Source of the DNA: Gracilariopsis chorda
Taxonomy: Eukaryota; Rhodophyta; Florideophyceae; Gracilariales; Gracilariaceae
DNA length: 44,147 nt
Direction: 5' to 3'
Assembly (NCBI GenBank): GCA_003194525.1
Contig: NBIV01000449.1
Span: forward strand, 1 to 44,147
Shown here: positions 16,202 to 44,147 of the stretch, piece after piece
Numbering within the stretch: the stretch's first letter is position 1
How the letters are laid out: every line of letters begins with the position of its first letter
Notes under the pieces: model-generated
What the model was told of the DNA's origin: nothing
Databases searched by the model: none
The model's input: the letters and a program-made list of their open reading frames with translations, nothing else
Position numbers and translations under genes: made by a program

Positions 16202-17028
16202 TGTAGTGCAACGCCCTCAGGGAGGGATTCTTGGTACTTGAACGCTTTCCCGATATTATCGGTTGTGTAGTGTTTATATGAACCACGCCCCATTATGGTG
16301 GATATGGACACGTGGGACACGGTTTTGGGTCAATTGGCGGTTGGCCACAGTAGTGGATGTTGTCACGAAATGTGGAGTATTTTAGTTGATTTTATTTATT
16401 ATTTTCACACCCATTTCTGGGAAGCTAGTACTTTGTGCGACGGCGCACTGCCGTCGCACCAGTAAACCTTCCCTAACAAGGGACCCCAACCTGGGGAATT
16501 GGTTCTAGTTGTTACCGCTTGCGCGCGTGCTCTACTCCTCCTTGGAGGGAAACGCCGTGAACCACGGGACATCTAACCCCCTTGCACATGTAAAGGGACC
16601 CATCACTGGGAGTCATATTATTCCAATCGCATTGGTGTTTCGCCCTGTATAGGGATATTGTTACCGGCATCGCCGTTCGCCCCGGTCGCTCTCGCGACTC
16701 ACTTCGTCCTCTCTTCCTCCTCTTCGCCCTTACTTTTTCCCCTTTTTAGGATAGCACCTCCCGCTATCCCCGGCCCTCGTGTGCGCATCCGCTCACACTT
16801 CCCCACTTACGTGGAAACATACCTCTACTGAGGATCACACCCCGCTCACGCGGATACCGATTGTTCGCCTTCACCTCCCTGCGCGAGTCACGACAGGTGT
16901 CCCTGGTCTTACAAACCGGCTTCGCCGTGACACCTCTGGGAGGGCTCTACCCAACTGGGTTCACCTCCACGGAGGAAAGATCCCGAACGTCTTTTCGGTG
17001 TTTCTCTCCTTTGGGGCGTTGCACCACA
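16202..17028 (+). mobile_element. Solo LTR of the G2 gypsy family
   Basis: 827 bp, starting TGTAGTGCAACGCC and ending TTGCACCACA, flanked by perfect 5-bp duplications CCCAG (16197-16201, 17029-17033). It aligns end to end with the 5' LTR of G2 (35129-35955), which is also 827 bp, with only scattered differences. Homology stops at exactly the same bases, which fixes the LTR boundaries. It contains a 25-nt hairpin at 16435-16459 (arms GTGCGACGGC and GCCGTCGCAC, loop GCACT) and many CC...GG hairpins, for example CCCCA/TGGGG, CCTCC/GGAGG and CCGC/GCGG. Confidence 0.95.
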
Positions 17029-20820: not shown

Positions 20821-20832
20821 CTCTTGCTGATT

Positions 20833-21636: not shown

Positions 21637-21638
21637 TT

Positions 21639-26900: not shown

Positions 26901-27290
26901 CCCCTGCACATTCCTAGCGCCACAGAAAGTCATGTTGTCAGCAAAAAACCTCAATGTGGACCACATGGGAAAGACGTCCAAACTACTAACTCTATATTGT
27001 GGACCGTTCAGGATCACAGAAAACCTTGGTCCAGTAACATTTCGTATAGACTTGAGTCATACACTGAAGTCAAAAATTCATGAATTGTCCCATGCTAGTG
27101 TTGTCAAGCCTTACCGAGAAGGCAAATCAATTCGTCCGGAGCCAGATCATCACACCCCTGTAACATTGATGGATGGGACAGAAGAATATGAAGTAGAATG
27201 TATTGTCAACCACAGAAAACGGGCCAGACGATTTGAATTTCTTGTCGAATGGTTTGGATACCCAAGTGAAGAGAACATTTAGATGAAAGA
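23937..27290 (+). pseudogene. G1 pol: PR, RT, RNase H, IN, chromodomain
   Basis: Protease (about 23970-24060) has the active-site segment as LLFENGSE, so the catalytic Asp of D-S/T-G is replaced. RT (about 24560-25260) keeps VVYLDDIRIFS, with YLDD at 25032-25043, and QKVEYLGHIVSAEGI. The connection domain has DVQAFLGLVNYYRRFLKN. RNase H spans about 25390-25820 and keeps QPIKGNSNVVAGALSR. Integrase (about 26060-27150) shows H2C2 remnants, IIDFITQLP, VDRLSKWV, IISDRYKNF and HTDGPTEVMNKNIEEM, so the D,D,E triad positions are readable. A chromodomain start, YEVECIVNHRKRARRFEFLV followed by EWFGYPSEENI, ends at a TAG near 27280. At least eight stops or frame changes are seen across pol. Confidence 0.92.
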
Positions 27291-27393
27291 TAGAGACCTC
27301 ACGAACTGAAAAACACTCCTCCAGCAGTAAAAAAAGATGAATCGGCTCGTACCGAGAATGAACTAAGCGTCGCCGTCTCAAAAAACCTTGAAG

Positions 27394-27843
27394 ATGAATC
27401 ACAGCACCAATGTCCAAGGCACAAGAGAGTTTTACAACAATATTAACCTCGGCGGAAGATCGTTATACCACTGGATGGGTGAAATTACTGGCATTGAAGC
27501 AATCAGGCTACGTCTTTGCTGGGCAGCCTGTCATGTCTCCTTCTCACTCGCCCAATACCGTGGATCCTTCTACACCGACGAGAATGACATACTGCTGCAC
27601 CGACTCTTCTTCAACTATGATGGTGGAATTCTGACGATTTTGGATGATACGTTTGAAATGCATATCGTCTACTATATGGTCGCGCGTTATGGACACCTCA
27701 CGGGTGAACGAAGTTTTACGCAGGAAATTGGTGAAGTCCTGAACCGCTTCGAGGATGAAGGTCAAGTCCCACTCACCAGGGAACCTGAAACTCAGCGAGA
27801 CCTGTTCCCCGTTCCCCCCGAGTCTGGGTTTGTGCGAGTCTAA
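27394..27843 (+). CDS. Unexplained open ORF between G1 chromodomain and 3' LTR
   Basis: An uninterrupted 150-codon frame starts at ATG 27394 and ends at TAA 27841-27843, 50 bp before the 3' LTR. The product is moderately acidic near its end, rich in Tyr/Phe/Leu in the middle (RLRLCWAACHVSFSLAQY, LLHRLFFNYDGGILTILDDT), and has no evident signal peptide or strong membrane segment. The neighbouring gag and pol of the same copy are riddled with stops, so an open frame this long stands out. Its position is where other LTR elements may carry env-like or captured genes, but nothing identifies it as either. Chance is possible. Confidence 0.4.
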   Translation: MNHSTNVQGTREFYNNINLGGRSLYHWMGEITGIEAIRLRLCWAACHVSFSLAQYRGSFYTDENDILLHRLFFNYDGGILTILDDTFEMHIVYYMVARYGHLTGERSFTQEIGEVLNRFEDEGQVPLTREPETQRDLFPVPPESGFVRV

Positions 27844-27880
27844 TAAAATCTTCGTCACGAGTCGGTTTGACTCTCCTGTT

Positions 27881-27892
27881 AGGTGAAAAAGA
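27881..27892 (+). other. G1 polypurine tract
   Basis: AGGTGAAAAAGA abuts the 3' LTR start (TGTTAGAA at 27893); 11 of 12 bases are purines. It is the expected plus-strand primer for reverse transcription. Confidence 0.6.
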
Positions 27893-28544
27893 TGTTAGAA
27901 TTAGTTATTATTTACTTTTCTTTGAATATAGCTGGCTGTAGCATCATTTTTATCGTACAAAACCAAGCCAATTTTATTCTACGCAATCTTCTGAAAAGAT
28001 CGCTTACCCATTTTCCATGCCAAACTGGCCTCAAAACTGAGTTGGCATCTTCGTGACACCCTGTAAATATGACAAGATAACATTTTCATGTCAGATAAGT
28101 CTTGGTTGATGACGTGGACATATTGGCTCTAAAGTACACGTTGCCTACTACTCAGAGCGTTGACAGAAACTTCACACGGTACAGAAGGTATCGAACGGTC
28201 ATGGAAGAATCCTGAGAGAGTTGTGCCAAATCATCACTGGCACCCTGGGTCCATACCAGATCATCAAGATTTTGTCCGATGACAAGTCATCAGCATTGAT
28301 GGAATTTGCCAAGTCATCAAAGGTCTAGATCTGACATTGAACCTGGTAAACCAGTCGCGTACGGAGGCCAACACCAACACCAAGCATCATACCGTTTAAC
28401 TCGGACGAATTCTCATCTACTAGTGGAACTGATAGAAGTAGACTAGAAACTCTATATAAACCCCGATGGATGTTCCGAACTTCTAAATTGGATCATTAAT
28501 ATCGACTTACAACCAATTCCACCAATGGTTCTCTGTTTCTAACA
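27893..28544 (+). repeat. G1 3' LTR
   Basis: 652 bp, TGTTAGAA...TTCTAACA, with TATA box at 28453-28460. It is followed by GTCTC (target duplication), then the last base of the C2 5' LTR. Confidence 0.95.
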
Positions 28545-28550
28545 GTCTCA

Positions 28551-28895
28551 TGGTCGCATCACTCACCCATCCCTCGACCGCAACCCCGAACTATCTCTAT
28601 TTCCACGCCAACCCCTTGCCCTCACCCTTACCACCGCCAATCGAAAGCCTTCCCTCTCGACATCAAACGCGTATTCCTCTCCTCAACGAAGCTCCGCAAC
28701 GCACATCTCATTTATCGCAACCCTTTTGAGATAGTGGAATTCATTTTTGGACGCGAAGCCTACAGGCTCTACTTGGTCTTTACTACTCAGCTCTACAAAT
28801 TAGTTTTCTACCTTGGACATTCCACCACCACTTTCAATCTGAAGCAGAACAGCTCGCAAGCCGAGTACCTGGACGGGAATGGAGTGGGCACTTGA
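28551..28895 (+). other. C2 primer-binding site and open leader frame
   Basis: TGGTCGCATC follows the restored C2 5' LTR directly, as a primer-binding site should; the matching tRNA is not identified. From the same base a frame is open for 114 codons to TGA 28893-28895. It is Pro/Ser-rich at first, then KLRNAHLIYRNPFEIVEFIF, GREAYRLYLVFTTQLYKLVF, and so on. It has no in-frame ATG and no recognised family. 28896-29366 shows nothing coding and is presumably untranslated leader. Confidence 0.45.
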
Positions 28896-29366
28896 ATTAA
28901 TCCTTAAAATTTGATATCACACTGGATAACCGGCTTAGCTGGGGTGTGCTCTGTCTGGCTTTGGTGGCACAGTGTGTCGTCGTTTGGCCAAAGCTCTTCA
29001 ATAATCCTCTTTCTTTATTAACCAACAACGCCGCGCTCGATTCTTGCAATGACCTAGAAGGGGTCAACTGGTGGAAGCTTATCTTGAGTTAGTAGCCTCC
29101 CTTGGATGATCAGTGGGGACTAAACGCACCTCACTTTTGTTAGCGCAGAGCTTGGAAGGCTGCAGAAAGTCGCAACATACCAGGAGAGATTAATCCGGGT
29201 CCAGCCGGCAAACATCTAAGGTAGTGCAGATAGTTTCTCCTATCAGTGGGCCCGAACAGAAGAAGAATCACAAAAGGAACCTCGCTAGCTAGATGTCCAG
29301 CAGACTATCAAAAGGAACCTCGCTAACCAGAGATCATCACCCCCATTTTACTCTTAACACAAACAG

Positions 29367-30412
29367 ATGAGTGGAAGTAGAGAAGAAGGCGAGAGAACAA
29401 TCCTATGCCTTAAGGGATCTGCGGACTACTGCACATGGAGAACATATGTTCGAGACAGAATGGACGCTGACCAAGTTCTCTTTGAGTTAAGAGATGCCCA
29501 CCCATTGAAAATTGAGAGCTCCGCCCAAGCTCCACGCCTATGGGATTAAACTCATAGAAAAGCACGATCACATTTTGTGCAGAACCATGGTACTCCGCCA
29601 GTTGTTGCCGTGTCAGAGGTTCTTGAAAGACCGTAATGTTCTGCATTACACGTTCGGACCAAGCTTGAGACTACTTACAAAAAGGAAAGCATTCAAACGA
29701 AGATGAATCTTGGACAACGTCGCAACAGTCTTGTGTTCAAGGATGACGGGAATATTCTCGAGCATCTCCATGATATGGAAACAATATTACTTGAGCTTGC
29801 TGGTCTTGGAGATCCATTAACCGACAAGGAGCAAACAGCTTGTTTGTTGAGAACCTTACCAGACTCATTAATGGAGATCACATTACTCACAGATCCAATA
29901 ACATGGAACAAGACCAGGTGGTCTCGTTGATAAGATTTGAAATGGATCACCGCAAACACCTTGATTTCGCTAGTACCATCAAAACTGCTGGTATACAAAG
30001 TGGTTCCCACTACCACCATATAGCCACGCAGAAGTCCAGAATCGCAATCTTAAGGGCACTTAGGAGATCCAAACCGATTCGATGCTGGGATTGTGGAACG
30101 CTAGGCCATATTCAATCCAAGTGTCGTTGGAGAAAGCAATCGACGCCAAACGAGGATTACCGGAAACGATCTTCAAACCGATTGCGTAATAAAAACTTCA
30201 GATCGAAGGAATGGGACTCCAACGGAAGAAACTCAAGCAAGCCCAACCTCGACAGACAGAACACCGAAACTCGTGGGTTTGTTGCTAGAACACAGGCGAA
30301 CATATCTGTTCAAGAACATGAGGCACTTGCACGGCTGGAACGTGGCCCTAGTCATGGTTTCGTCAACGATAAAGCCCTCTTCGGGATTATAAAGCCATGG
30401 CGAATGATTTAG
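29367..30412 (+). pseudogene. C2 gag
   Basis: ATG 29367 starts a copia-type gag (UBN2-like): GSADYCTWRTYVRDRMDADQ, then after two in-frame stops LETTYKKESIQTKMNLGQRR, ILEHLHDMETILLELAGLGD and KEQTACLLRTLPDSLME in the same frame. A frame change near 29910 leads to ORF 29840-30412 with the nucleic-acid-binding zinc knuckle CWDCGTLGHIQSKC (C-x2-C-x4-H-x4-C, near 30082-30123). Order and spacing fit a normal copia gag. The stops prevent expression of a full protein. Confidence 0.88.
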
Positions 30413-30429
30413 TGCGTACATGTGACAGA

Positions 30430-33335
30430 GAATCTGAGAAAAAAGGGACAGGAACGATCATGTTGCCTTTCAGAGATGGAATCTGTTTACCTGCAAAGCA
30501 AAGTGCCTCTTTTGATTCCAGCTTCGTATCTCTATGAGTACTTTCAGATTATGCTACTGTCACATTCAGCACTGATGATAACTTTACCGGGTTTATCATA
30601 AAGTATTCTAGAAACCAAGCACTGCTTCACCAATTCACAGTGAAAAACGAGCTTTATCCACTACCAAACCCAATCCCTCCGCTTCGAGCTCAGGCCCGTA
30701 TTACAGCACCTGGAGATACTGCAAACGACTGGCACGAAAAACTACGACATCCTGGAAAAGACCAACTATTATCCATCGTCCACCAGTCCAACGGTGTACC
30801 AGATCTGTCGAAATCTGATGTCCAAAACATCCATTGCACATCATGCTTAGAAGCAGGATCGAGATGTGCTCCACTACAAAGATCCTCATCCTTAGTGACC
30901 TTCTTACTGAAGCTTATGCACACAGACCTAACTGGTCCCATTTCCCCACTGTCATTATAAGGATCAAAGTACATGCAGGTTCTCTTTGATGATGCCACAA
31001 GAGCATCATCGCTTTACTTCCTATCGACTACATCACAGTTCTTCGTCTCCATAAATTGGTAAAAGGCTCTCATGAAAAATGAACAACGAAGGAACCGTCT
31101 ATACCGCGTTCGCCTTGACGGAGCGGACGAGAATAAAACGAACGAGTTCGGCACTTATGCATTGGAGAACGCAAAAATCCTTGAATACACACCAATTTAT
31201 GCACACGAGTCGAACTGCGCTGCTGAGAAAATCATGAAGGATTTGTGGAAGACGGCTCGAAAATTTCTCTACGCATCCCAACTACCTCAACAGCTTTGGG
31301 AAGAAGCCATATCCCATGCAAATTGGACACGGAACCGCCTAACAAACTCCAGGATCGGCATGAAGGTTCCTTACGCGGAATAAATCTGTAAAAATCCCGA
31401 GTCCTCCACTCTACTTAAGTTCAGACAAGACGGTCAAGCCTATATCTATCGTTCTGATACGGCACCGAACAAAAAGTTACTACCCCGATCTTTGAAAGGA
31501 CACTTCTTTGGAATGCAAAGCACTGAAATGCTATACAGAGTTTACATCCCTTCCACAGAGAAGTTGATCATGGTCAGGCAAAAAGAATTCAAGGTATGAC
31601 AGGACTATCTACCATCCATCAACACGCTACTTGACTTCTCGTCCTTGGGCTGGACAGAAGCTGAGCAGCGACTCGATGAAGAAGAAGAGAAGTACCATGA
31701 AGCCACTCTCTCGCACTGCTTAGTTGCAAAATCTCGCTTGAAGCATGGAAGCGACTCGTTTAAGGTACCGAATAACTTCGAGGAAGCAAGAAAGATTCCC
31801 GTATTGGCGGAAGCAATCAAAAGGGAATACGATGCTTTCTTTGAAAGAAAAAGTTTCAGACTCATTGAAAGGAAGGCATGAATGAAACCTCTTCCCTTCC
31901 TGTGGACTTTAAACGGGAAATACATAAGTATAAGTCCTTCAAAAATTCTCCCCAAAGCTCGATGTGTCTTAAGAGGTGACATGCAAAGACCATATTTGTA
32001 CTACGATCTTGAAAATCTGTGCGCACCTGTGGCTCGGCTTGAAACATTCCGACTAGCCTTGGCCAAGGCAGCCGCACAGAAACTGCTTTTGGAGACAATG
32101 GATATAAGAAACGCTTACATATACGGTAACTTAGAAGAACTCTTGATAATGGAGCAACCTCAGAATGCCTCTGGCTTTTCTTATCTTCCTGGTAAAGTTT
32201 TCTTACTGTTGAAATACATTTATGGTGCAAAGCAAGCGGGACAAATTTTGGGGTCTCTGTTGCACATAGAGGTAGTTCGACTGGGATTTAAGCAGTCGAA
32301 AACGGACAGTGGGCTGTATATTTACAGTTCAGGAAGTGGCACAATCATTATTGTTTTCTCTGTAGACGACAGTCTGACTCTGTCCTATTCAAAGTCTCTC
32401 TGGGAAGACTTTAAGGCCAAAATGAAGAAACTGTTTCAGGTAAAACTTCTTAATGAGGCCAAGTCTTTCATTGGTCTGGAACTAAAAAGATATAAGAATG
32501 GCATCCGTGCAAGCCAAGGGAGGTATGTGGAAAAGTACTTCGAGATCACAATTTCTGCAATGCAAACCCAGCAGAGACTCCATTACCGTCTCCTGGTACA
32601 GTTTCAGTGACAGGTCATAGTGAAACAATTCTTCCATCATTGCTTCACGCAAAATACCGTAAATTGGTTGGTCACCTGATGTAATTGGCACTGGCATCGA
32701 GGCCTTATATTATGTTTGCAGCATCAATGTTGGCGAGACAGTTACACATTCCCTATCAGAGGCACCTTGCACTGACAAAACGCGTCTCAAGATACTTGAA
32801 AGGCACAAAGAACCTTTTTCTCTACTTCCCGTCGGAAAGTCATACTCCAATGGAAGCATCATGTGATACAGACTGGTCTGGTTGTCGCGGAACTAGAAAG
32901 TCTACAAGTGGCATAGTATTGAAGGTGAATGATGAACCCGTGTTATGGACGACGAAGAAGCAAACAATCATTCCTTTGTCCTTTAGAGAAGCGGAATAAA
33001 CTGCTTTGTCCTATTGTGGGAACCTGCTAACGTGGTTACGAAGACTGTTTTGGGAGCTTCAGAATGGTACCATTGTTGATAATGAAACGAATGACATGTA
33101 TCCAATTCGTATTAGTACCGACAGCTCCACTGCAAATTCTATTATGAATGCGTCTAAGACTTCTGAAAGAAACAAACACATTGAACTGAAGTTGCACCAT
33201 GTTAGGGAACTTGTGAATTCTGAGGTCTTAATTATCTCTCAGATATCAAGCGACTTTCAATCAGTGGACATTATCACGAAAGTTGGTTCTCAAAACCGCT
33301 TATATAATATTTATATTCTTTACAGTTTGAGATAA
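30430..33335 (+). pseudogene. C2 pol: IN, RT, RNase H
   Basis: GAG-pre-integrase domain 30640-30957: WHEKLRHPGKDQLLS and CTSCLEAG (His/Cys zinc site). Integrase follows: LMHTDLTGPI, then RLDGADENKTNEF and HESNCAAEKIMKDLWKTARK, preserving D, D and E positions in changed context. RT 31645-32610 has one in-frame TGA at 31879-31881, then CAPVARLETFRLALAKAA, MDIRNAYIYGNLEE and the catalytic box as FSVDD instead of YVDD. RNase H 32685-33335: SRYLKGTKNLFLYF, CDTDWSGCRGTRKSTSGIV and TTKKQTIIPLSFREAE followed by a stop. The order IN before RT is diagnostic of Ty1/copia. The protease region (about 30410-30560) is too decayed to show its DSG. Confidence 0.92.
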
Positions 33336-33586
33336 TTTCTTTTTACTACATTTCTAACCTGTCTTTTTCCTTCTTTTTGTTTTGTCAATGTTTGCAGAAC
33401 TAATTGAAAGTGACCTTGAGAAAATCAATATAAGTAAAGGCTGTACCTTTTCCTATTGTACGCATATTTTTTTCTAATACATTTTCACTGGTACAAGGGG
33501 TTTTTAACGGTAGCTGTTAAGCTACCAACTTTAGCAGAGTTTTTATCTTGTATTCTCTGTTCCCACCGCAAAACATTTAGAGGTAT

Positions 33587-33599
33587 TTGGGAGGGATGG
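33587..33599 (+). other. C2 polypurine tract
   Basis: TTGGGAGGGATGG lies directly before the 3' LTR and is mostly G/A, as expected for the plus-strand primer. Confidence 0.6.
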
Positions 33600-33781
33600 T
33601 GTGAGAGGTAGAAGTAGAGAGAGTTACATTGTAATTCTCAAAATTACAATGCAACTCCGAATTGAGACTGCCTTCGGTACTCTCTTTCACCTAAAGTTAC
33701 AAAAAAACCAGAAGACAGAGCCTATAAAGGAGCGGCCAGGGGCGCAGTCTGTGCTTTCTGCCGGCCACAAACGTCGTCTCA
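33600..33781 (+). repeat. C2 3' LTR
   Basis: 182 bp, TGTGAGAGG...GTCGTCTCA. Contains TATAAAG at 33723-33729 as possible promoter and an internal inverted pair around TACATTGTAATTCTC/AAATTACAATG. Followed by GATT, the target duplication shared with 20829-20832. Confidence 0.93.
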
Positions 33782-33785
33782 GATT

Positions 33786-34146
33786 TGCAATTCTCTGCAG
33801 TTTAAGTCAGAATTACAGTAAAAGGTAGCATAAAGCACCAAGCGGTGCGAGATCACGAAGTAAAGAAGATATTCATAGTCTTTCTCTCACAAAATTGACA
33901 AATTCTGACTGCGAACCTTTAAAAGGTCTTAAGGTGGCAAAGGGCTCAATTTGGCTGAACCACGACCCCCTTCTTTGAGTTTGTTAAACAAAAAAATCAA
34001 CTCTTAATTGATCTCCCCGATCTCGAACCATGCTTTTCATATGCCTATTGGAGACTATACAAGAGTCCTGAGACACCAAAGTGCGCCTCTCGGAGACTTT
34101 TGTGAAGTCCTGAAATATTAACGTGTGATATGCCATTTTCGATACG
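33786..34146. other. Post-C2 flank, no gene recognised
   Basis: By the nested model this is the continuation of C1 past its coding end, perhaps its 3' LTR. I could not pair it with any other sequence in the window. Confidence 0.3.
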
Positions 34147-34465
34147 GTGCAATACTGTAAAACAAAAGCTGACCAAGCAAGGCGAGAATCCGAGGAAGCA
34201 CGCCACCGGAAAGCAGCGAAAATCGTACAACAGCACTATTTTGCAGCCAATGTCTCCCACGCAACATCTATCAGCAGTTTCACCGTATACTGCATTCTAA
34301 AATCAATGAACATTCAAGCCAAACCAACTCTTCAGCGATTACTTACCTCTACCGTGCACTATACAGGCGGCAAGACAATTTTGTCTTCCCCAGAAGAAAT
34401 CATGCTCGTAGAATGCGCTATCATTGCATCAGAACACAGTATTACAACGGGAGGACATAACATGC

Positions 34466-34837
34466 TGTGAGAAATGCAACCCTCACACCATCCTGGTAAG
34501 ATGATGAGAAGAGTTTAGATAAAAGGGATCATCTCACCATCCTTGGGGATGGTGAAAAATTCATGCCTTTCTACCACTCCAAGGATGGTGGAATGGTTGC
34601 TTACAATGCCGCATTGATGCGCGCATCTTAAAATAGTTATAATGGAGAACGAGGACTAGCGTCTTTCTCCTCCGGTATAAAAGGGAGGGAACAGAGCTCG
34701 TCCCTCGCTTCTCGTCTGTTCCCCAACCCACCTTTCTACATCAACTTGTCTTTATTAAAAAAAACTACTATAGTTTTTTCGATACTAACCGTACCTACCG
34801 CTGTATCACTTTTTCCAATAATCGAGTTTTATCGACA
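34466..34837 (+). mobile_element. Solo LTR of a third LTR family
   Basis: 372 bp from TGTGAGAAATG to ATCGACA, flanked by perfect 5-bp duplications CATGC (34461-34465, 34838-34842). It has a TATA box TATAAAAG at 34676-34683. It is unrelated in sequence to the C2, G1 and G2 LTRs. The reading frame of the surrounding transposase fragment resumes across it, which supports the boundaries independently. Confidence 0.88.
34486..34590. repeat. Inverted-repeat cluster in the solo LTR
   Basis: CACCATCCTGG (34486-34496), CACCATCCTTGG (34535-34546) and its perfect complement CCAAGGATGGTG (34579-34590). In addition 34535-34554 forms a hairpin with arms CACCATCC and GGATGGTG around TTGG. Repeated, invertible 8-12 bp motifs upstream of the TATA box could be regulator binding sites or RNA structure. 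Confidence 0.8.
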
Positions 34838-34990
34838 CATGCGCTTGATAATATCACAAGTTGCGAATAATGGCCATAGAACCTTCACAAATGACATGCA
34901 GTCCGTGTATGCCTTAAGATAGTCTCGCGCACGGAATCAACCACTAACAATGCGCAGAACTGAAAAAGAATCCATACACATATTTGCGCA

Positions 34991-35128
34991 CAAAATCAAA
35001 GACATCTAAGAACATTGGTTGATGTAATCAACCAGGTGAAGGCATGAATGCCAGATAGTTTCATGGACACACGAAAATTGCAGAATCTCTACAAAACCGC
35101 TATTTCAGCGCGCTATAGTAGTCAATAT
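34991..35128. other. Short spacer before G2
   Basis: Nothing recognisable; the last five bases, AATAT (35124-35128), should be G2's target duplication, whose partner lies outside the window. Confidence 0.4.
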
Positions 35129-35955
35129 TGAAGTGCAACGCCCTCAGGGAAGGATTCTGGGTACTTGAACGCTTTCCCGATATTATCGGTTGTGTAGTTT
35201 GTATATGAACTACGCCCCACTATGGTGGATATGGACACGTGGGACACGGTTTTGGGTCAATTGGCGGTTGGCCACAGTAGTGGATGTTGCCACGAAATGT
35301 GGAGTATTTTAGTTAATATTATTTATTATTTTCACACCCATTTCTGGGAAGCTAGTACTTTGTGCGACGGTGCACTGCCGTCGCACCAGTAAACCTTCCC
35401 CAACAAGGGACCCCAACCTGGGGAATTGGCTCTAGTTGTTGCCGCTTGCGCGCGTATTCTACTCCTCCTTGGAGGGAAACGCCGTAACCCACGGGACATC
35501 TAACCCCCTTGCACATCTAAAGAAGCCCATCCTTGGGAGTATAATTGTTCCAATCATATTGGTGTTTCGCCCTGTATAGGGAGTCCTGTCCACCGGCATC
35601 GCCGTATCTGTTCGTCGCTCTCGCGACTCACATCGTCCTCTCTTCCTCCTCTTCGCCCTTCCTTTTCCCCCTTTTTACGGTAGCACCTCCCGCTATCCGC
35701 GACCCTCGTGTGCGCATCCGCTCACACACCCCCACTTACGTGGAAACATACCTCTACTGAGGATCACACCCCGCTCACGCAGATACCGATTCTTCGCCTT
35801 CACCTCCCTGCGCCAGTCGTGACAGGTGTCCCTGGTCTTACAAACCGGCTTCGCCGTGACACCTCTGGGAGGGCTCTACCCAACTGGTTTCACCTCTTGA
35901 GAAGAAGATCCCGAACGTCTTTCGGTGTTTCTCCCCTTTGGGGCATTGCACCACA
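35129..35955 (+). repeat. G2 5' LTR
   Basis: 827 bp, TGAAGTGCAACG...TTGCACCACA, collinear with the solo LTR 16202-17028 and identical in length. The long hairpin is conserved at 35362-35386 with one G-T wobble in place of G-C. The pyrimidine-rich stretch at about 35630-35680 (TCCTCTCTTCCTCCTCTTCG) is shared too and may lie near the transcription start; no clear TATA box was found. Confidence 0.95.
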
Positions 35956-35958
35956 AAG

Positions 35959-35971
35959 TGGTCTCCCGACC
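35959..35971 (+). other. G2 primer-binding site candidate
   Basis: TGGTCTCCCGACC begins 3 bp after the LTR and would pair with a tRNA 3' end ...GGTCGGGAGACCA. Its first bases also form the 3' arm of a hairpin ACCAC/GTGGT at 35950-35962 that spans the LTR boundary. The tRNA is not identified. Confidence 0.5.
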
Positions 35972-36060
35972 TAGAATCGATTTTTGTTTTCCCTCTTACG
36001 AGGTTTGTTTTTATTCACCGGAAGTTCCGTGATCGTTTCCCGTCGTAACGGTATTTTGTC

Positions 36061-38235
36061 ATGTCGAGAAATCCCTCCGATGCGGAGCCAGTGGTTACGC
36101 GTAGTCGCTCCCGCTACAACGCGGACACTTCCGAAGTTCGGTTCGTACCCCGTATCCCTATACGGACAATTTCCAGCCGTGCTGGCGCCGCTTCATCGCG
36201 GAATGATACCCCCGACCGGGAACCCCGGAACCTCCTTTTGCCCTCGTTATCACCCCCGCAGGGGAATGCATCATCGACTCCGGCTGTTGCCGCAGTGCCC
36301 CAGGCACCCCGGCCTGCTCCCGCTGTCGCGGCTTTAAGCCCACGTGGAACGGGCGATAACAACCCCCAGGGGAGTTCCCTGGAATCCCAGTTCCGCGCTC
36401 TGTGGACCGCCCATGACACCCTTGTAGGGGAACTAAAATCCCTCCAAGAGGTGGTCTTGGCAACCCCCGTAAAGGAGGTCGCCGAGGAACTCCGTATTTT
36501 ACGGTCTGACGTCAACTCCGTGTTGGAGAGTTTGGGACAACCCGCCACCTTCATCGAAGGAGTTGAAGCCAGATTTGATCGGATTGGTGCCCGCCTGGAG
36601 ACGCTGGAGCAGTTCGTATTCATGGACAAACCATCCCCGGGTGATCCGGTAAACGAGGCATCGCACAACGACCAACTTGCTGGGAGGAAGAAACGCCGTC
36701 ATCGACGGAAACACCACCGAAAATATTCGTACTCCGATTCTTCGACATCGTCGGACTCATCCCGAAACCATTCGGTTAGCTCGAGCTCCTCGGACTCCAA
36801 CTCGGAGGACGAGAAGCGACGCTACTCCTCCCTCTCGAAGCGGTCATCGGCCACTGAAGGTGTGGTACGAACCCGCCAGAAGTGGAGAAGACACCCCGGT
36901 CTTCGGGAATTGAAACCGACAAACCCGGATTACCGGAAGCTTTTATCATACCGGTACTACCGGCTCGAAGACTCGTCACTTGGACGTACGCCCCGTGGTA
37001 CTGGAAAGGTGCGAGAATGCATTAAGCGAATGCAGCTCTCGCTCCACAACCAGCATTTTACTGGAGAAGACCCAGTCCTAGTACTAGATTTCCTATCGCG
37101 CTTTGTAGCGGAGGCCGATATCCTCGGTATGAATGAGGGACAAGCCTATTTGGCTTTACCGTATTTCTTACGGGGAGTGGCGGAGGACCAATACACCTCT
37201 GTCAGAGGATCTTCTCGTGCCTCCGAGGGAGGAGTTACTTGCTGGCCGGAGGCTGTGCAGTATCTTCTGCACTCCTACGCCACCAACACCGCTATTCAGC
37301 AGGCTATCCTCGCTTTGCGAGATACACGCCAGCGTGCTGGAGAGACCGAGACCGATTACTCGGTGCGCCATAACAAGGCATTCCACAGATGTGGTAACGT
37401 ATACCCCGCTGGGGAGCCCAGTACCATGTTCATCGATGGTCTTGACCCGGCAATCCGGAGTTTAGTTACCCGTTATCGGGAGGACAAGCGGAGGATCACC
37501 TATCTCGAGCTGGTCCAACACGCCCGAGCGGAAGGTGATGCACTTCGTGCAAGAACTCCGAACAATCGGTCTAAATCCGCCAAGGCGTTGTTGCTGGAAA
37601 GCGAAGCTTCTTCACTCCCGCTCACCGCGGATAGGAACCTTGGACAGGGATTTCATACCGTGCATTTGGTGCAGGAGGATGGTGTGTCGATACCCACAAG
37701 TGATCTACCGTCAACGACGGAGATAACCCGTGATACGGGAACGGAAGACCCCGTTTTGTACGGTGGTAACAGTCGGGTTCAACCCCAACGACTCCCGTTT
37801 TCAAACGGTCAATCCCGTTATCAACGGCCTGGATGGACTGACACCCGCCCTGCGGTTCGCTTCTCCGATACTCGGAATAATAATCCGCGTGTCGCGGTAT
37901 TGGCTCTGATTTGCCACCTGTGCTATGCCCATGGCCATACCTCACCTCAGTGTATTTGTTCACTGAAGGATATGGCCAAGGTGGTGGCAAATTATGAGGC
38001 CCTCACTCCAGAGGAGAAACGTTCCGTCCCGACGGCTTCCTACCTCCGTGCTAAAACGGACTTTTCCCATGCCCTACCACAGACCCCGCATGCGTGGCAA
38101 GCTTCATACACCCCGATTCGGGAGATCACGCAACCATCCGTTGCAGCCCCCGCTTATGCGGATAGAAACCCCCGTCAACGGGATGAAGCACTCGTTGTCG
38201 AGGAAACCAACCCACCGCCGAAGGCGGAAAACTAA
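36061..38235 (+). CDS. G2 gag, intact 724 aa
   Basis: ATG 36061 to TAA 38233-38235. The product has a basic start, a Pro/Ala-rich region, a predicted coiled-coil around residues 115-195 (LRILRSDVNSVLESLGQ), and a strongly basic then Ser-rich segment at about residues 207-265 (KKRRHRRKHHRK, then Ser/Asp repeats). A capsid-like helical domain spans about residues 320-500 (ALPYFLRGVAEDQYTSVRG, AILALRDTRQRAGETETDYS). A zinc knuckle CHLCYAHGHTSPQC (C-x2-C-x4-H-x4-C) lies at residues 617-631. It is longer than typical Ty3 gag because of the N-terminal and RS-like parts. Gag packages element RNA; the knuckle and the RS/basic region are the likely RNA contacts. Confidence 0.93.
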   Translation: MSRNPSDAEPVVTRSRSRYNADTSEVRFVPRIPIRTISSRAGAASSRNDTPDREPRNLLLPSLSPPQGNASSTPAVAAVPQAPRPAPAVAALSPRGTGDNNPQGSSLESQFRALWTAHDTLVGELKSLQEVVLATPVKEVAEELRILRSDVNSVLESLGQPATFIEGVEARFDRIGARLETLEQFVFMDKPSPGDPVNEASHNDQLAGRKKRRHRRKHHRKYSYSDSSTSSDSSRNHSVSSSSSDSNSEDEKRRYSSLSKRSSATEGVVRTRQKWRRHPGLRELKPTNPDYRKLLSYRYYRLEDSSLGRTPRGTGKVRECIKRMQLSLHNQHFTGEDPVLVLDFLSRFVAEADILGMNEGQAYLALPYFLRGVAEDQYTSVRGSSRASEGGVTCWPEAVQYLLHSYATNTAIQQAILALRDTRQRAGETETDYSVRHNKAFHRCGNVYPAGEPSTMFIDGLDPAIRSLVTRYREDKRRITYLELVQHARAEGDALRARTPNNRSKSAKALLLESEASSLPLTADRNLGQGFHTVHLVQEDGVSIPTSDLPSTTEITRDTGTEDPVLYGGNSRVQPQRLPFSNGQSRYQRPGWTDTRPAVRFSDTRNNNPRVAVLALICHLCYAHGHTSPQCICSLKDMAKVVANYEALTPEEKRSVPTASYLRAKTDFSHALPQTPHAWQASYTPIREITQPSVAAPAYADRNPRQRDEALVVEETNPPPKAEN

Positions 38236-38260
38236 CTGAGGGAGTCTCCCCTTTGGGAGA
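38226..38260 (+). promoter_or_regulatory. Possible -1 frameshift signal at the gag/pol junction
   Basis: The pol frame is -1 relative to gag and is open across the gag stop. The last gag codons are GCG GAA AAC TAA, giving a near-consensus slippery heptamer GGAAAAC (38226-38232) right before the stop. Twelve bases further lies a perfect hairpin with arms TCTCCC (38245-38250) and GGGAGA (38255-38260). Another hairpin, CCGCC/GGCGG, occupies 38215-38227. Pol has no nearby ATG, so expression as a gag-pol fusion is plausible. The P-site part of the heptamer is not ideal. Confidence 0.55.
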
Positions 38261-41200
38261 GGCGTCCTCAAGAACGAGGCTGTTGGCGCCCGAGGCGTCC
38301 TCGCCTCGCTCCCCGGTGAAATTCCTCTCGAGAAAAGACACCGCTGAAGCGAACTCTGCGCACCTCGGTGTGTTGCGTCGCCCGTGGATACAGAGTAAAA
38401 ATCCCCGGATGCCCAGTAGGGTCTTGGTCTTGGCCAAGCGCAATTATAAGGTCTATGCCGACCTTGGCCTTGATCCCCAGTTTATGGTGAGGTTTCTCAC
38501 CGTCCTGGATACAGGTGCAGGCCCCAACTTTGTTGTGGAATCATTGTTACCCCCGCTTGTGCGGTCTCGTATCCGCTCTAACGCGGTCCCCGACATTTCG
38601 GATGCGAACAACAATCCATTACAAACGGTGGGCACAGTGGACCTCGTCGTGAGACTCGGTACCTCTGTGGTGAAGTTGGAATTCATCGTTTGCCATTCAT
38701 TGGCAGCACCAGTCATACTGGGATGTGATTACTACGACAGATTTGTCGATGCAATCAGGCCCCACCTCAGGCGTGTAGAACTTGACGACGGATCGTCGGT
38801 TCCGATTGTTCGCCGCCCGCTAAAGCGGTCCTCTCGGAAACAAGTTACGCTCCCTGCTGCGCAGGAACCACCGCCCGCGTCCCGCGAGTCCACCAAGCTC
38901 CGCGTCGCTGCCTCGGTTTCTATACCGGCTGAGTCCCAAGTCTGGGTGCAGGTAAATTCCCGTCAACACGGTCTTTGGGTTATACAACCCCTCGCCTCGT
39001 TGTACGAGAAATCCCAGCTGGCGCTGGCTAATGGAATTGTCTCCATTTCCCCGGATGTTCCTTTCCGGATATTGGTTGCCAACCTTGGCAAACACCCCCA
39101 GTATCTGGTAAAACACCAAGTAATTGGGAGTGTAACCCCCCATCCTATGGGAATGCTGCCAACGAAGATGACAGCCGCCGATGTACTCGGAGTTACCACC
39201 TCTTCTGAGGAGTTCGCCCCGCCGTCCTATGACGTCAAGTCTAAGGAGGGGGAGGAAACCGCTACTTCAGCGTCGAACATACCGAGTAACTCGGAATTGC
39301 GAACCACACCTGTTCCACAGGACAATGCTCCATCGAGCAACGACCAGATTGATCCGGAAAAAGCACTTGAAGCGCTGGACTTCAGCCACGTGCCAGAGTC
39401 GCACCGCGACAAACTACGTACTATGTTACGGGAATTCACCCCAATCTGGGATGGCTCGCTTGGCGAGATTAATGCAACGGAACACCGGATCGATTTAATC
39501 CCCGGTGCGCGACCGGTTGCACAACCCCTTTACAGGGCAGGTCCGAAAGCTCGGGAAGAGGAGCAGTCCCAAGTGGACAAGATGCTCCGCGCAGGTGTGA
39601 TTGAGCCCGCTCAATCACCCTGGGCATCCCCAGTTGTACTGGCTTTAAAGGCCGACGGAACCTGGAGGTTCTGTGTCGACTACCGCCGGCTCAATGCCGT
39701 GACTGTTAGGGACACGTACCCTATCCCTCGTATGGACGAGTGCATTGACTGCCTTGGAGACGCCACCGTGTTCACGGCCCTTGATGCCAATTGGGGATAT
39801 TGGCAAGTACCTGTCAGACAGGAGGATCGCGACAAAACCGCATTTACGTGCCACGCAGGAACGTACCGCTTCAAGCGGATGCCATTTGGGTTAACCAACG
39901 CCCCCGCTACCTTTCAGCGTGCAGTAGATATTCTACTCAACCGCTTTAGGTGGCGGAGTTGTCTGGTCTACCTTGATGATATTATCATCTTCTCCAACTC
40001 GTTGGACGACCATCTCACTCACGTTCGAGACGCGCTGACCGTACTCCGCGATGCGGGAATTACCGTCAAGTTGAGGAAATGCGAGTTTCTCACGGATACT
40101 GTGAAGTATCTGGGTCACATTATCCGTCCTGGACGGTTAGCGATCGAGAAAGCTCGAGCCAAATCGCTCGTTGAGGCGAAAGAACCCCGTACTCAAACGG
40201 AACTGCGCTCCTTTTTGGGGCTGGTCAACATCTATCGACGGTTTATCCCGAACTTTTCGGATACTGCGGCGCCCCTAAACGCGTTGTTACGAAAGGGGAA
40301 TCCCCTAAAACTGGGAACATTTACGCCCGAACAATCGGAAGCTTTTAACTCCTTGAAGGAGGCTGTCACATCAGCACCAATCCTACATCTCCCAAAACTT
40401 GGGTTGCCATACTCCGTAGATACGGACTCGAGCGACTACCAAGTCGGGTGTGCTCTTTTTCAAACCACCCCCGAGGGGGAACGACATCCAATTGGTTATT
40501 GGTCGCGATCGCTCAATGTTCATGAGCGGAACTACTCCGTATCGGAGAAAGAGTGCCTCGCCGTCGTATGGGCGATGACCACTCTGCGCCCCTACCTTAT
40601 GGGAGTTCACTTCACCGTGTACACGGATCATTCCTCATTGAGGTGGTTGATGAATATCTTCGACCCGTCGGGACGCCTCATGCGCTGGAGACTCCGCCTC
40701 GCGGAATATGACTTTCAAGCCATTTATAAAAAGGGTGCGCAGAACACCCAGGCCGACGCTTTGTCGCGGTTACCCACAAGTGGGGAAGCACTCCCAACGG
40801 AGGATGATGAAGTCCCATGTTTCATGGCTATAGACGCGGATGATCCGGAATATGCCGTCGAGGCTAGGCCAGAAAACTGGGACGAGGATGCTGATTTTGA
40901 CGAACTACTCGCATCGCGAGATAAATCTGAGAACCCGTTACCGGGAAACTTTGTACCGGTATCACCCGAAGAAATGATCCGAGAACAATTCGGTGACCCA
41001 TTCTGTACGAGAATTCGTGCCCGTATCAACGGTGGTGAAGGTCTCCCTTTCGGGGTAAACGACAAAGGCTACCTCGTAAGGAAGGTCGAAGCCCGTCCAC
41101 AGATTGTGGTACCACGTTCCCTGCAATCGCGGGTGTTACATCTATCACACTACGCCCCCATCGGAGGTCACCCAGGTGGGAGGAAACTCTACCTAACCCT

Positions 41201-41650
41201 GCGAAGGGATTTCTATTGGCCCGCCATGGCGGTGGATTGCTACGCAACTGTGCGGTTCTGTAGCGAATGCGCGAAGAATCGCGTCAAGCTCTGCAATCAT
41301 GCGAAGAAGATGAAACTATTCCCCGCAAGGGCGCCACTCGAGTTTATCGCAATTGATGTTCTCGGACCACTACTCACCACAAAACGTGGAAACAAGTTTC
41401 TACTTGTCATCACCGACCGCTTTTCTAAGCTGGTACGGACTGTCCCTCTTCGGAGGATAACCGCTCTCACGGTGGCCCAGGCTCTGGTGACGCACTGGAT
41501 TTTTGTCTACGGTCCCCCTGTGGAGGTGCTCTCCGATAGCGGGAAACAGTTCGTGAGCAAGTTCTTCCAGGATGTTTGTCGCATCCTGGATGTCAAGAAC
41601 TTGTTCACGACTACCTTACCACCCCCAGTGTAATGGGCACGTTGAACGGT
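38236..41650 (+). CDS. G2 pol: PR, RT, RNase H and integrase up to its frameshift
   Basis: Frame open from inside gag to a stop at 41631-41633 (numbering from the near-cognate TTG at 38253). Protease: VLDTGAGPNFV, Asp codon 38508. RT: AGVIEPAQSPWASPVV, GTWRFCVDYRRLNAV and LVYLDDIIIFS with YLDD at 39969-39980. RNase H: YSVDTDSSDYQVGCALF near 40408, YSVSEKECLAVVWAM, AQNTQADALSRLP. Integrase: HYAPIGGHPGGRKLYL with FCSECAKNR (H2C2 zinc), first Asp in IDVLGPL (41355), second in LSDSGKQF (41535). The catalytic Glu region HPQCNGHVERFNRTLLAA is reached only after a one-base shift in the C-run at about 41620. All enzymes needed for copying are present and open up to there. Confidence 0.95.
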
Positions 41651-42180
41651 TTAACCGGACGTTACTCGCGGCGTTTACGTTCCTACGTTGCTGACCACCC
41701 AACGAATTGGGATCTCTACGCTGATGCGGTAACCTACGTGTACAATACGCAGGTACACCGGACTACTGGAGTTTCGCCATTCGAGTTGGTTCTATCTAGA
41801 CCACCCCCGCCTGTGGCGCTGGAACCCCAAGCTACCTTGGACAATTTCCCATCTGTGGGTATCTACCGGCAGCAATGGAAGCAATGGCTTTCCAAGCTGG
41901 TCCCCGCTGCGCGGAAGTCTATGGCACGGGCCCAAGCCGCTTACAAGCGGGATTTTGACGCTCGCTTGCGAGGAAAGAACCCCCCGATTCGGGCAAATAA
42001 CTACGTCTTCATCAGGAAGGAGTACTACAACCCGGAACGGGAGAAGCGTCACAAACTCTCGCCTGTGGCGGATGGACCCTTCAAGGTCATCTCTGTTAAC
42101 ACCGACACTGTCGTGGTAGAGATGGGCGACACGCACGAACGGATTTCCCGTGATAGTATTGTCCTTGCCCCTCCTCCCTC
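41651..42180 (+). pseudogene. G2 integrase C-terminal part, after a second frameshift
   Basis: A second one-base shift near 41670 (in GCGGCGTTTAC) brings in LRSYVADHPTNWDLYADAVT, VYNTQVHRTTGVSPFELVLS and the SH3-like GPFKVISVNTDTVVVEM domain, which is the usual integrase end of chromoviruses. Two frame changes within 60 bp around the catalytic Glu disable this copy's integrase unless they are homopolymer errors. Confidence 0.88.
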
Positions 42181-43755
42181 TTCAGAGGTAGTCCTGGATC
42201 CAGGCAAACCCGTTTCTACGGACTCTGCAACACCGGAACCATCCGGGAGTACTAGGCCTACGGTGCTACCACACCCCAGCCGGGGACTCTCAGACCTACC
42301 AACCCTGTCGGATTCACCGGCTCAGCCGGGTAATTTGGGCCTCTCAGCGCCCGCCCCTACCACGCCCGCCCCATTGGCGCGCATTTATACCCGCCAAGCG
42401 GGGAATGTTATCCCTTATCCCGCCACTCCGTCTAAGGAGGGGGAGGAGAACACTCGTTTTCGAGGATCGATATCGCCGTCGCAACGGGAAACACACCGTA
42501 TCATACGGAACCACTCACCGTGGAGCACGGGTATGTCACGCAACACTAATCCCCCGTTCCGGGCAGTGCTGTGCAACAGGAACCAGACGCGCAGTCCCCG
42601 CAAAAGCGGCAAATTACACCGTTTGTCACGGGAAAACGAGAAGCCTCCCTCCAATACCGCAGCAGCGGAAAGGCAATCGCCCGATCCATTCCCCGGAGGC
42701 ATCTCCACAAACGCGGAAAATATTACCGTGCTACACGGGAAGTTGAAGCGCAACTACCGCACACCCCTGTCAGGAAGGATCCCCGATAAGGGAGCATGGT
42801 GGACTATTGCACTCAATCCCCTCAGCAGGGCGATGCCTCGAAGCCGCCGTTGGCGGAAGTCCCCGCGGAAGCGGTTCAATCAGGTCGATCAGCCCCGCGC
42901 CCTGCGGAAAAGAGGCGCCCAGATACACCAGCGCCGCTGGGAAATCCCCACAGCCCTCCTGGGGAAAAAGGCAGCCAAGCCGCAGCCGAAGGTTCAGGCC
43001 CTGGCCTCCGAGCGCCGGAAACGCCTCCCGTCGTCGACGGAATTGAAGCCCCCGTTCCGAGTAATAATTTTGCGCCACCTCCCGCTACGCTGCGGGGAAG
43101 AACCAAGGAACTCGGAAAAAAGCGCACGCCATTGCACGCTTGAAACCGGTCATACCGGACGCTGCTCCTCCGCGTGGAGACGGTGCACCGCACTTAGCGG
43201 CCAAGCCCCTGAAAAGGGTGTCATCGGCACCTGCCCGGCACCCCCCAAAGGGGAATTTTGACCAAAATACCGGTGTACCGGAGTTAGCCCCAGGCAACCC
43301 GTCAGTAGCCGGGGGACACCACGGCATCGCCAGAACGTATGGTGCAGAGCGCCTCGTGCGCCTGGCAGGGAGGCGGTTTGCCACCCAATTACCGTGTCGC
43401 ACGGGACCCCCCAGGGGATTGTGGAAATGCCGATTCCGCAGGAGCGGTCATCTTCCCGCAAACTCGCGGTTCGTGAGCTCAACCGCGAAGGCGGAGCCCA
43501 AGTACCCCGCCGACTGGCGGTTTCGCCCGCAATACCGCGAAAACGGAAATGAACCTGCCCCAATGGGGGAATGACTTGCCGGTGAAAACCGTGGCACCAC
43601 ACACCCTCTTGCGGGATATCTTCCCACATGAGCAGGCGGCCGCTATCACAGCGCACGGCAACGCCGGAGTTATCGCCGAACACCCTGCTAAGGGACATTA
43701 TACCGCACAGCGGGCAGCCCCCGCAAGGAAGTACAACCACCACCCGGCACGGCCG
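42181..43755 (+). other. G2 long Pro/basic-rich tail between integrase and chromodomain
   Basis: About 1.5 kb separates the integrase end from the chromodomain, where most chromoviruses have little. It reads as Pro/Ser/Thr-rich and Arg/Lys-rich protein in shifting frames: 41576-43261, then a convincing Pro/Ala/Glu-rich frame 42796-43143, then 43140-43574. No stable domain is seen. Hairpins are especially frequent: CCGTA/TACGG 42496-42508, CCGCC/GGCGG 42844-42856, CCGC/GCGG with GGAA loop 42863-42874, CCGGT/ACCGG 43146-43158 and 43270-43281. Confidence 0.7.
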
Positions 43756-43762
43756 GCAGGTC

Positions 43763-43935
43763 TACGAACGAGAGTTCGTAGTAGACCGACTTGTCGGACA
43801 CATCTGGGACCAGGATGGTATTCTCTACAATACCGCGTCCGCTGGTACGGGTACGACCCCAGTGGGGATACGTGGGAGCCAATTGAACACCTCCCACGGT
43901 CGCAGGTCCTGCGATACCACCGTTCAAACGGGAAC
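43763..43935 (+). pseudogene. G2 chromodomain, frame-shifted
   Basis: YEREFVVDRLVGHIWDQDG in one frame is continued after a shift near 43825 by YRVRWYGYDPSGDTWEPIEH and LPRSQVLRYHR in another. It carries the chromodomain aromatic cage pattern (Y...W..W...WEP..L). Chromodomains steer integration towards marked chromatin. The first codons sit in an 8-bp hairpin with a GAGA tetraloop (arms CTACGAAC 43762-43769 and GTTCGTAG 43774-43781). Confidence 0.88.
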
Positions 43936-44147
43936 TGCAGCCCCAGCCACGCTGGTTAATGCCCAAGTTGGGTAACGTTGGCGCGCGAGCGGAGAGCGAT
44001 AGGAAAGGATAACAAGGCAAGGTCCGTCGAAGACGGGAACTCAACCGAGAAGCACCGTTCTGAACGGGAACGTTTATTCAAGGGAGCAGCTAGCTCCCGA
44101 CAATACTACACTACACTAACTGGCATAGCCAGGGAAAGAAGAACCAG
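43936..44147 (+). other. G2 3' untranslated stretch
   Basis: No coding sequence. Hairpins at 44055-44067 (CCGTT/AACGG), 44082-44098 (GGGAGC/GCTCCC) and 44120-44132 (CTGGC/GCCAG). A purine-rich AGGGAAAGAAGA near the window end could be part of the polypurine tract, but the LTR start is not reached. Confidence 0.5.

Follow-up and report, generated by a model that had tools for sequence, protein, structure and literature searches.

Element G2, a Ty3/gypsy LTR retrotransposon at 35129..44147 (+) of the window, i.e., of the whole 44,147 nt stretch of Gracilariopsis chorda DNA analysed here (contig NBIV01000449.1), is densely filled with short perfect hairpins, and this texture resembles an undescribed structural code under natural selection. 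We counted 69 perfect 5-bp CC...GG stems with loops of 2–4 nt, compared with 3.1 ± 1.7 in 60 dinucleotide shuffles and with a mean of 3.6 and a maximum of 9 in 200 shuffles. The excess claimed in the first-pass annotation is therefore real, and all 19 stems named there were found letter for letter in their places. Its expectation of 2–3 random stems was about right (3.1–3.6 in the shuffles), but its hand count of “well over a dozen”, while correct in pointing to an excess, strongly underestimated its size. Control stems of the form GG...CC occurred at chance level (2, vs 2.5 expected from 60 and 2.9 from 200 shuffles), and among the 16 possible starting dinucleotides only CC (69), CT (13, shuffle maximum 6) and CG (10, shuffle maximum 8) exceeded all 200 shuffles. 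Hairpins of 4–5 bp starting with CC number 148 and occupy 18.9% of G2 vs 1.3% of the shuffled sequences; CC/GG pairs at hairpin spacing are themselves in excess.

In the coding parts, 19 CC stems in gag and 22 in pol exceeded all of 1000 codon-preserving shuffles (mean 1.6, maximum 6, and mean 1.65, maximum 7, respectively), which bears out the earlier suggestion that synonymous codons are chosen so as to preserve the stems. The hairpin content of coding gag is no lower than that of the LTR. The element is GC-rich (0.557), as an origin by chance, base composition or codon usage would have it, but both types of shuffles fell far below the counts and GG...CC stayed at chance; we ruled out a composition or codon artefact on these grounds and regard this origin as extremely improbable. 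The neighbouring DNA lacks the texture, as had been noted before, with 3 stems (loops 1–4) in 1–15000 and 3 in 18001–35000. A single further cluster in the window (8 stems with loops 1–5, in 16001–17000) lies within and just upstream of a hairpin-bearing solo LTR of the same family as G2 (16202..17028, +).

The unit common to the clade is a stem of 4–5 exact Watson-Crick pairs closed by a loop, usually of 3–5 nt, and recurs once per 50–90 bases in the three stretches measured. Examples on the + strand of G2 are CCGTA-ttt-TACGG (36492..36504), CCGCC-gaa-GGCGG (38215..38227) and CCCCC-ga-GGGGG (40468..40479). The hairpin CCGCT-tca-AGCGG (39866..39878, +) is identical in L003, a copy of subfamily A2, and reads CCGAT-tca-ATCGG at the homologous place in family B; CCAAG-ctac-CTTGG (41827..41840, +) corresponds to CCAAC-ctac-GTTGG in L003, and CCGTA-tca-TACGG (42496..42508, +) to the same stem with the loop cca in the A2 copy L056. 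The 87 CC stems of G2 with loops of 1–8 nt comprise 38 distinct arm sequences and thus do not represent one miniature hairpin that spread, as the first-pass annotation had considered. Its alternative of a palindromic site with a single motif fails as well, as the inner pairs are free and complementarity alone is kept. In 83 of the 87 stems there is no outward extension. Hairpins are not regularly spaced (uneven gaps, coefficient of variation 0.68–0.78) and show no preference for a codon phase (15, 14, 10). An apparent preference for A after the hairpin was discarded as largely background, since in the L003 frame 21 of 39 hairpin GG have A as the next base, as do 93 of 229 other GG.

G2 belongs to subfamily A1 of family A and was assigned to Ty3/gypsy by the order reverse transcriptase (RT), RNase H, integrase together with its LTR features. 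A single pol frame (38253..41633, +; 23 CC 5-bp stems with loops of 1–4 nt) contains the Pfam domains RVT_1, RT_RNaseH, Integrase_H2C2 and rve in this order, the latter two being the zinc and core domains of integrase. Upstream are the 5′ LTR (TGAAGTGCAACGCC...ATTGCACCACA, 35129..35955, +), which bears hairpins too, a putative tRNA primer binding site (TGGTCTCCCGACC, 35959..35971, +), so named for its position after the LTR, and a gag frame of 724 aa (36061..38235, +; 21 such stems). LTRs of this family have TG...CA ends and a short target duplication, seen at the solo LTR as CCCAG at 16197–16201 and 17029–17033. As read from the sequence, Gag contains an Arg/Lys-rich stretch, GRKKRRHRRKHHRK (36682..36723, +), which we take to resemble basic RNA-binding peptides, and a CX2CX4HX4C zinc-knuckle pattern, CHLCYAHGHTSPQC (37912..37953, +), at which there was no Pfam match. 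A further reading frame on the 3′ side (41576..43261, +; 16 such stems) includes the stretch LSPVADGPFKVISV (42056–42097), presumably similar to the integrase C-terminal GPF module. The copy is truncated by the contig end, and no second LTR was found in 35000–44147. The former label “chromovirus” finds no support for G2: no Chromo domain was detected at E ≤ 0.001 in the frames of this copy, which are broken, nor any Chromo match in gag and the 3′ frame even at E ≤ 1, while the neighbouring element G1 does contain one. Neither Rfam and tRNA searches covering the window nor a comparison of Gag with PDB sequences gave a result.

Among the elements examined, the texture is limited to one Ty3/gypsy clade, comprising families A–F of this genome and L062 from another record. 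In the RT tree, from which L061 and L063 were left out for having short RT matches only, the families with texture fall on one side of a 100/99 branch (9 rows with vs 7 without texture). All seven families tested exceed codon-preserving shuffles, with z ranging from 3.4 (F) to 14.8 (A). Nine more distant elements that we examined lack the texture. Among L057–L061 and L063, CC stem counts were inside the shuffle range, and for stems of any sequence only 1 of 36 cells exceeded the maximum of 40 shuffles (L061, 4-bp stem with 4-nt loop, 18 vs 16). A search of viral contigs with RT alone gave no match, and one with an alignment found a single distant element, without texture.

Whereas the geometry is common, preferred bases and loop length vary by family. 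Families A and B have CC...GG at the stem base and a fixed span, family C favours C in pairs two and three, family D uses a 4-bp stem with a 4-nt loop and a G-C closing pair, and L062 is hairpin-rich almost without a base rule. Family F is weaker (perfect stems at 1.75 times the codon null), and the narrow count for family C (CC, 5 bp, 3-nt loops) is 3, which codon shuffles reach (maximum 3). By eye, the CX2CX4HX4C pattern is present in Gag of A, B, C and L062, as is a basic stretch ahead of a Ser-rich tract, weakest in C. These family rules bear on evasion of host silencing, in which self-structured sense and antisense strands would hinder the pairing of small RNAs. Both strands would then have to fold, so that only Watson-Crick pairs would help, and the strand symmetry and the spread of hairpins over the whole element fit. 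However, this leaves the family-specific rules unexplained, for instance the CC that opens the stem, and G1 and L080, LTR elements of the same genome, are free of the texture; we consider this explanation quite improbable.

Comparison between families revealed the compensatory stem changes that the first-pass annotation had proposed to look for. Where both sides of a pair had changed, the new pair was Watson-Crick in 525 of 1336 cells (39%), vs 1210 of 5507 (22%) in a shifted-partner control, and covariation was above this control in 24 of 24 (overlapping) comparisons. Between families that are 63–66% identical, hairpins recur at homologous places, in 11 of 50 cases from A to B (0.8 expected) and in 7 of 49 from A to C (0.37 expected). 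Between A1 and A2, at a local divergence of at least 8%, changed sites made up 73 of 577 in stems, 44 of 193 in loops and 483 of 2412 in the rest (shift-null p = 0.0025 for fewer changes in stems); this comparison rests on three pieces, two of them using the decayed window copy, and the effect is gone at a divergence of at least 15% (0.240 vs null 0.248, p = 0.42). Private mutations of single copies were not depleted in stems.

Such data also address a mutational habit of the reverse transcriptase, by which short fold-back template switching rewrites one arm to be complementary to its partner and perfect hairpins accumulate without function. Template switching is reported as a source of perfect hairpins (PMC8794818). 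The strictness of Watson-Crick pairing and the transversional double changes that skip G.U intermediates are consistent with it, and so is the finding that changed A1/A2 hairpins often differ at several stem sites (one, two and at least three differences in 5, 8 and 13 of 26, counting both directions). On the other hand, one-arm overwriting between families was not seen: differences confined to one arm made up 43 of 95, 16 of 116 and 3 of 115 hairpins with 2, 3 and 4 differences, compared with null fractions of 0.39, 0.14 and 0.05. Private changes destroyed rather than created hairpins (4 net gains vs 26 losses from 103 single changes, 1 gain vs 3 losses from 13 clusters), which is weak evidence, as most of them probably arose after insertion. 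Moreover, CC/GG is in excess at hairpin spacing as such, and coding gag is no poorer than the LTR. Overall, we find this habit a rather unlikely cause.

The pairing rules are strict. Relative to the codon null, stems with a single G.U were found 1.21-fold, with A.C 1.20-fold and with other mismatches 1.21-fold, compared with 2.81-fold for perfect stems. Evolved one-sided changes led to G.U in 658 and to A.C in 722 cases, with similar background rates. Hence G.U is treated like any other mismatch, unlike in ordinary RNA structure; L062 alone leans to G.U (1.39-fold vs 1.03-fold for A.C). A reading in terms of the minus strand, suggested by an excess of A.C over G.U (1.46-fold vs 1.14-fold), was dropped because that excess vanished under the codon-preserving null. 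Inner A-T pairs are taken almost freely in A1 (0.42 of pairs vs 0.44 in the background).

These rules weaken the earlier suggestion that ordinary RNA structure serves in packaging or in escape from RNAi, and with it a selected secondary structure of the genomic RNA whose stability would be the trait, be it as dispersed packaging signals or as genome-scale order. Covariation and the density across coding and non-coding parts argue for it, and GNRA tetraloops in A2 lie above column expectation (11 on the + strand vs 4.3; 9 on the − strand). Dispersed packaging signals also have a precedent in RNA viruses (PMC6281560). The RNA reading is countered by the intolerance of G.U in both standing stems and evolved changes, by the acceptance of A-T pairs despite little added stability, by flanks that are not tuned for RNA folding (stem probability 0.448 vs 0.441 with shuffled flanks, mean over 97 A2 stems, p = 0.65) and by GNRA loops without strand bias (21 on each strand among 350 tetraloops). 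Altogether, we judge it unlikely.

The reading we lean to, if with somewhat less than even confidence, is that selection preserves the hairpins as docking units, spread over the element, for a nucleic-acid-binding protein of its own. A red-algal Ty3/gypsy clade would thus maintain an element-wide array of mini-hairpins, and the most plausible candidate partner is Gag, which carries a basic stretch and a zinc-knuckle pattern. Docking may serve in packaging and/or in coating the element's RNA and cDNA. Since exact Watson-Crick pairing is all that counts and the two strands look the same, single-stranded cDNA is probably the target of at least some of the selection, unless RNA and cDNA are both under it; the untuned flanks argue against an RNA version of docking. 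A bolder form, possible but doubtful, is a hairpin code read as DNA, in which up to about 150 exact mini-hairpins per element, of family-specific size and lettering, would be recognised on single-stranded cDNA (possibly RNA) by the element's own nucleocapsid, letting families tell their own genomes from those of related families that share the cell.

In G2, one tiny structural unit takes up nearly a fifth of some 9 kb, across coding and non-coding parts, by rules that shift between sister families. If Gag is the partner, capsid–genome co-evolution could be read here with unusual clarity, and models of dispersed packaging could readily be put to the test in retroelements. Should the trait act on cDNA, to which the strictness of pairing points, single-stranded DNA intermediates would be indicated as a target of selection, one that to our knowledge has been little considered so far. 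If the cause is mutational, a hairpin-writing reverse transcriptase would come to light.

In the open-licence literature searched, we found no account of hairpins of this kind in retrotransposons, including Ty3/gypsy, and we know of no virus with a comparable hairpin density. Pervasive internal structure paid for by synonymous choice is a feature of the genome-scale ordered RNA structure of RNA viruses and constitutes a likeness to G2; here, however, the unit is uniform (11–13 nt), without wobble and lettered by family. With Ty3/gypsy (Metaviridae), G2 shares the RT/RNase H/integrase order, TG...CA LTRs, a 5-bp target duplication and a CCHC gag, and differs in that no chromodomain was found in this copy. 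Template-switch hairpins (PMC8794818) are similar in their perfect Watson-Crick stems and multi-base compensatory changes without G.U steps, whereas here one-arm overwriting is missing, base rules apply and, among the elements examined, one retroelement clade alone is affected. Packaging signals of RNA viruses consist of many small dispersed motifs with a common recognition feature for the coat protein (PMC6281560), and the CC/GG base with a fixed span in families A and B may be likened to such a common feature. They differ from the hairpins reported here, in which only exact Watson-Crick pairs count and wobble is not tolerated, stem length and stem letters instead of the loop carry the common feature, and the bearer is a clade of LTR retrotransposons.

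The element G2 (35129-44147, forward strand, cut off by the contig end) is a Ty3/gypsy element with RT, RNase H and integrase domains and a Gag that combines a basic stretch with a CX2CX4HX4C pattern. By sequence, its LTR spans 35129-35955, and a putative tRNA-type primer site was assigned. The first-pass annotation had called G2 a chromovirus; however, the domain search returned no chromodomain, and the real chromovirus of the window is the neighbouring LTR element G1, whose integrase carries an SH3-like and a Chromo domain (26347-27282). Among the best 120 of 6482 RT relatives, the closest with eukaryotic names came from two red algae, Agarophyton chilense and Chondrus crispus. A solo LTR of the same family (16202-17028) lies inside a clean 5-bp target duplication, CCCAG (16197-17033 overall), and shares 91.7% identity with the G2 LTR across 828 aligned bases. 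By eye, the termini of both LTRs form an imperfect inverted repeat of ~15 bp (TGTAGTGCAACGCCC / GGGGCGTTGCACCACA in the solo LTR), exceeding the usual TG...CA. The window also holds a Sec1-like host gene whose Gracilaria domingensis relative is partial, covering 44% of the query at 82% identity; a gracilarioid red alga is thus the likeliest host.

The 19 short CC...GG hairpins originally listed for G2 each proved exact at their coordinates, and the claimed excess withstood the dinucleotide-preserving shuffles suggested along with it. Perfect 5-bp CC stems with loops of 2-4 nt numbered 69 in 35129-44147, vs 3.1 ± 1.7 in 60 shuffles and 3.6 (maximum 9) in 200 shuffles, whereas GG...CC control stems were not raised (2 vs 2.5 and 2.9 expected, respectively). 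The CC...GG spacing peaked at 8 and 9 intervening bases (139 and 155 pairs vs 38-70 at spacings 11 to 24); the first two inner pairs were perfect in 65/139 CC-N8-GG sites and all three in 43/155 CC-N9-GG sites. In 83 of 87 CC stems, pairing ended exactly at CC/GG. With 4-bp stems included, 148 hairpins made up 18.9% of the G2 sequence, vs 1.3% in shuffles.

In 1000 codon-permuting shuffles, which preserve protein and codon usage, gag averaged 1.6 CC stems and never exceeded 6, and pol averaged 1.65 and never exceeded 7; the observed counts were 19 and 22. The longest frames of L003, L004 and L010 (family A, to which G2 belongs), L021 and L025 (family B) and L026 (family C) likewise exceeded all 300 shuffles in CC 5-bp stems with loops of 1-4 nt; restricted to 3-nt loops, the three stems of L026 were reached by codon shuffles (maximum 3). 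Hairpin starts used all three codon phases (15, 14 and 10 in L003), as had been noticed for G2. CC 5-bp stems with loops of 1-4 nt were sparsest in the LTR (4.8 per kb), followed by pol (6.8), the solo LTR (8.5), gag (9.7) and the tail (9.8), and densest in 3′ non-coding sequence (13.5). The texture thus belongs to the element as a whole.

This hairpin texture is real, strong and clade-wide among the elements examined. From 4766 first-look candidates in the 91.3 Mb assembly, 108 family copies were scored. The 20 loci of family A carried 32-44 CC 5-bp stems each, and the seven of family B (L021-L025, L028, L031) 18-19. In family C (23 loci: L026, L027, L029, L030, L032-L050), which like B comes from this genome, 20 loci held 9-11 and the three shortest 4-6; the expectation across all three families was 0.6-2.4. 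The base rule differs from family to family: A and B call for CC at the stem base, whereas in C the outermost base is C, T or A and the next two pairs favour C. Family D (ten loci, L067-L076) favours 4-bp stems with 4-nt loops (37-47 vs 8-11 expected; a G-C pair closes 33/54 tetraloops in L070). Stems of 4 bp with 3-nt loops are the favoured form in families E (L078, L079) and F (L077), at 26-28 vs about 8. L062, with 22 stems of 5 bp and 3-nt loops vs 3 expected, accepts almost any base sequence. It lies on a contig filed under a bacterial Robiginitomaculum MAG (JALZUP010000409.1), is a Ty3/gypsy element of the red-algal clade, has a 99-residue RT fragment at 73% identity, and probably represents host DNA binned together with the bacterium. 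At 35-44% RT identity the texture was absent, both in the same genome (L080 and G1, the latter as first noted) and elsewhere (L057-L060, L064); L061 and L063 lacked it, too. Any-sequence stems summed over six geometries stayed within 40 shuffles in L057-L061, L063, L064 and L080. In the RT tree, a 100/99 branch separates the nine texture rows from the others. Three other 5-kb host-genome stretches (L051-L053) held just 1, 1 and 3 CC 5-bp stems; a fourth (L054) held 27 and contains a family A copy. Directly upstream of an A2 LTR, L055:1-330 has three further CC hairpins, possibly from another texture-bearing element.

For families with 63-66% nucleotide identity, hairpins occupied exactly homologous places in 11/50 (A-B), 7/49 (A-C) and 7/19 (C-B) cases, vs 0.8, 0.37 and 0.30 expected from shifted maps, sometimes with rewritten stems (CCGCT-tca-AGCGG vs CCGAT-tca-ATCGG). 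The compensatory substitutions that the first-pass annotation had proposed to look for were found: where both pair members had changed, 525/1336 cells were Watson-Crick, vs 1210/5507 when partners were displaced by 3 or 6 bases (24 overlapping comparisons). Within family A, the pol pieces of L010 (subfamily A1) and L003 (A2) differ by 0-2% up to 2.4 kb and by 14-29% past 2.7 kb, a pattern suggestive of recombination between subfamilies. At local divergence of at least 8%, differing sites numbered 73/577 in stems, 44/193 in loops and 483/2412 elsewhere (stem conservation, shift-null p = 0.0025); at 15% or more there was no stem effect (p = 0.42) and loops were still high. In the 3′ part, many hairpins kept the stem with an altered loop and some were rebuilt (CCAGC-tac-GCTGG vs CCTGG-at-CCAGG). 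Private single-copy mutations hit outer stems (7/4562), inner stems (14/5618) and loops (6/3413) as often as other sites (108/52695), and 116 such events caused 29 net hairpin losses vs 5 net gains. The window copy itself (cut out as locus L001) has lost hairpins, with 57 of 74 L010 hairpins intact. Taken together, these observations suggest selection while the lineage replicates and neutral decay once copies have inserted.

Perfect hairpins can also arise by fold-back template switching, as reported in PMC8794818. That such switching writes the hairpins here remains a rival, given the small number of private mutations and the frequent multi-site changes in hairpins that differ between A1 and A2 (1, 2 and at least 3 stem sites in 5, 8 and 13 of 26 differing L003/L010 hairpins, both directions). 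However, it predicts one-arm differences, which do not prevail between families: they amounted to 43/95, 16/116 and 3/115 for two, three and four differences, vs null fractions of 0.39, 0.14 and 0.05.

An RNA hairpin selected for stability should accept G.U at least partly. Against a codon-preserving null in seven families, perfect stems reached 2.81x expectation, and single-mismatch stems 1.21x (G.U), 1.20x (A.C) and 1.21x (other); L062 alone leans the opposite way (G.U 1.39x vs A.C 1.03x). Evolved one-sided transitions yielded G.U in 658 and A.C in 722 cases, at background rates of 0.149 (C>T), 0.150 (G>A), 0.172 (A>G) and 0.182 (T>C). Inner A-T pairs were used near background (0.37-0.42 vs 0.43-0.45); thus, weak pairs are readily accepted, unlike wobble pairs. 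Native flanks did not help the hairpins in RNA folding (0.448 vs 0.441). GNRA loops showed no strand bias (21 on each strand, of 350), although A2 exceeded the column-based expectation (11 vs 4.3). A DNA hairpin, a two-strand need or a recogniser of Watson-Crick geometry fits better than an RNA-stability hairpin. No report of such hairpins was found in the open-licence literature searched. The best reading is that they are selected docking units: the element's own nucleoprotein, as a conjectured binding partner, would dock on dispersed hairpins, and selection would act at least partly on their DNA form.
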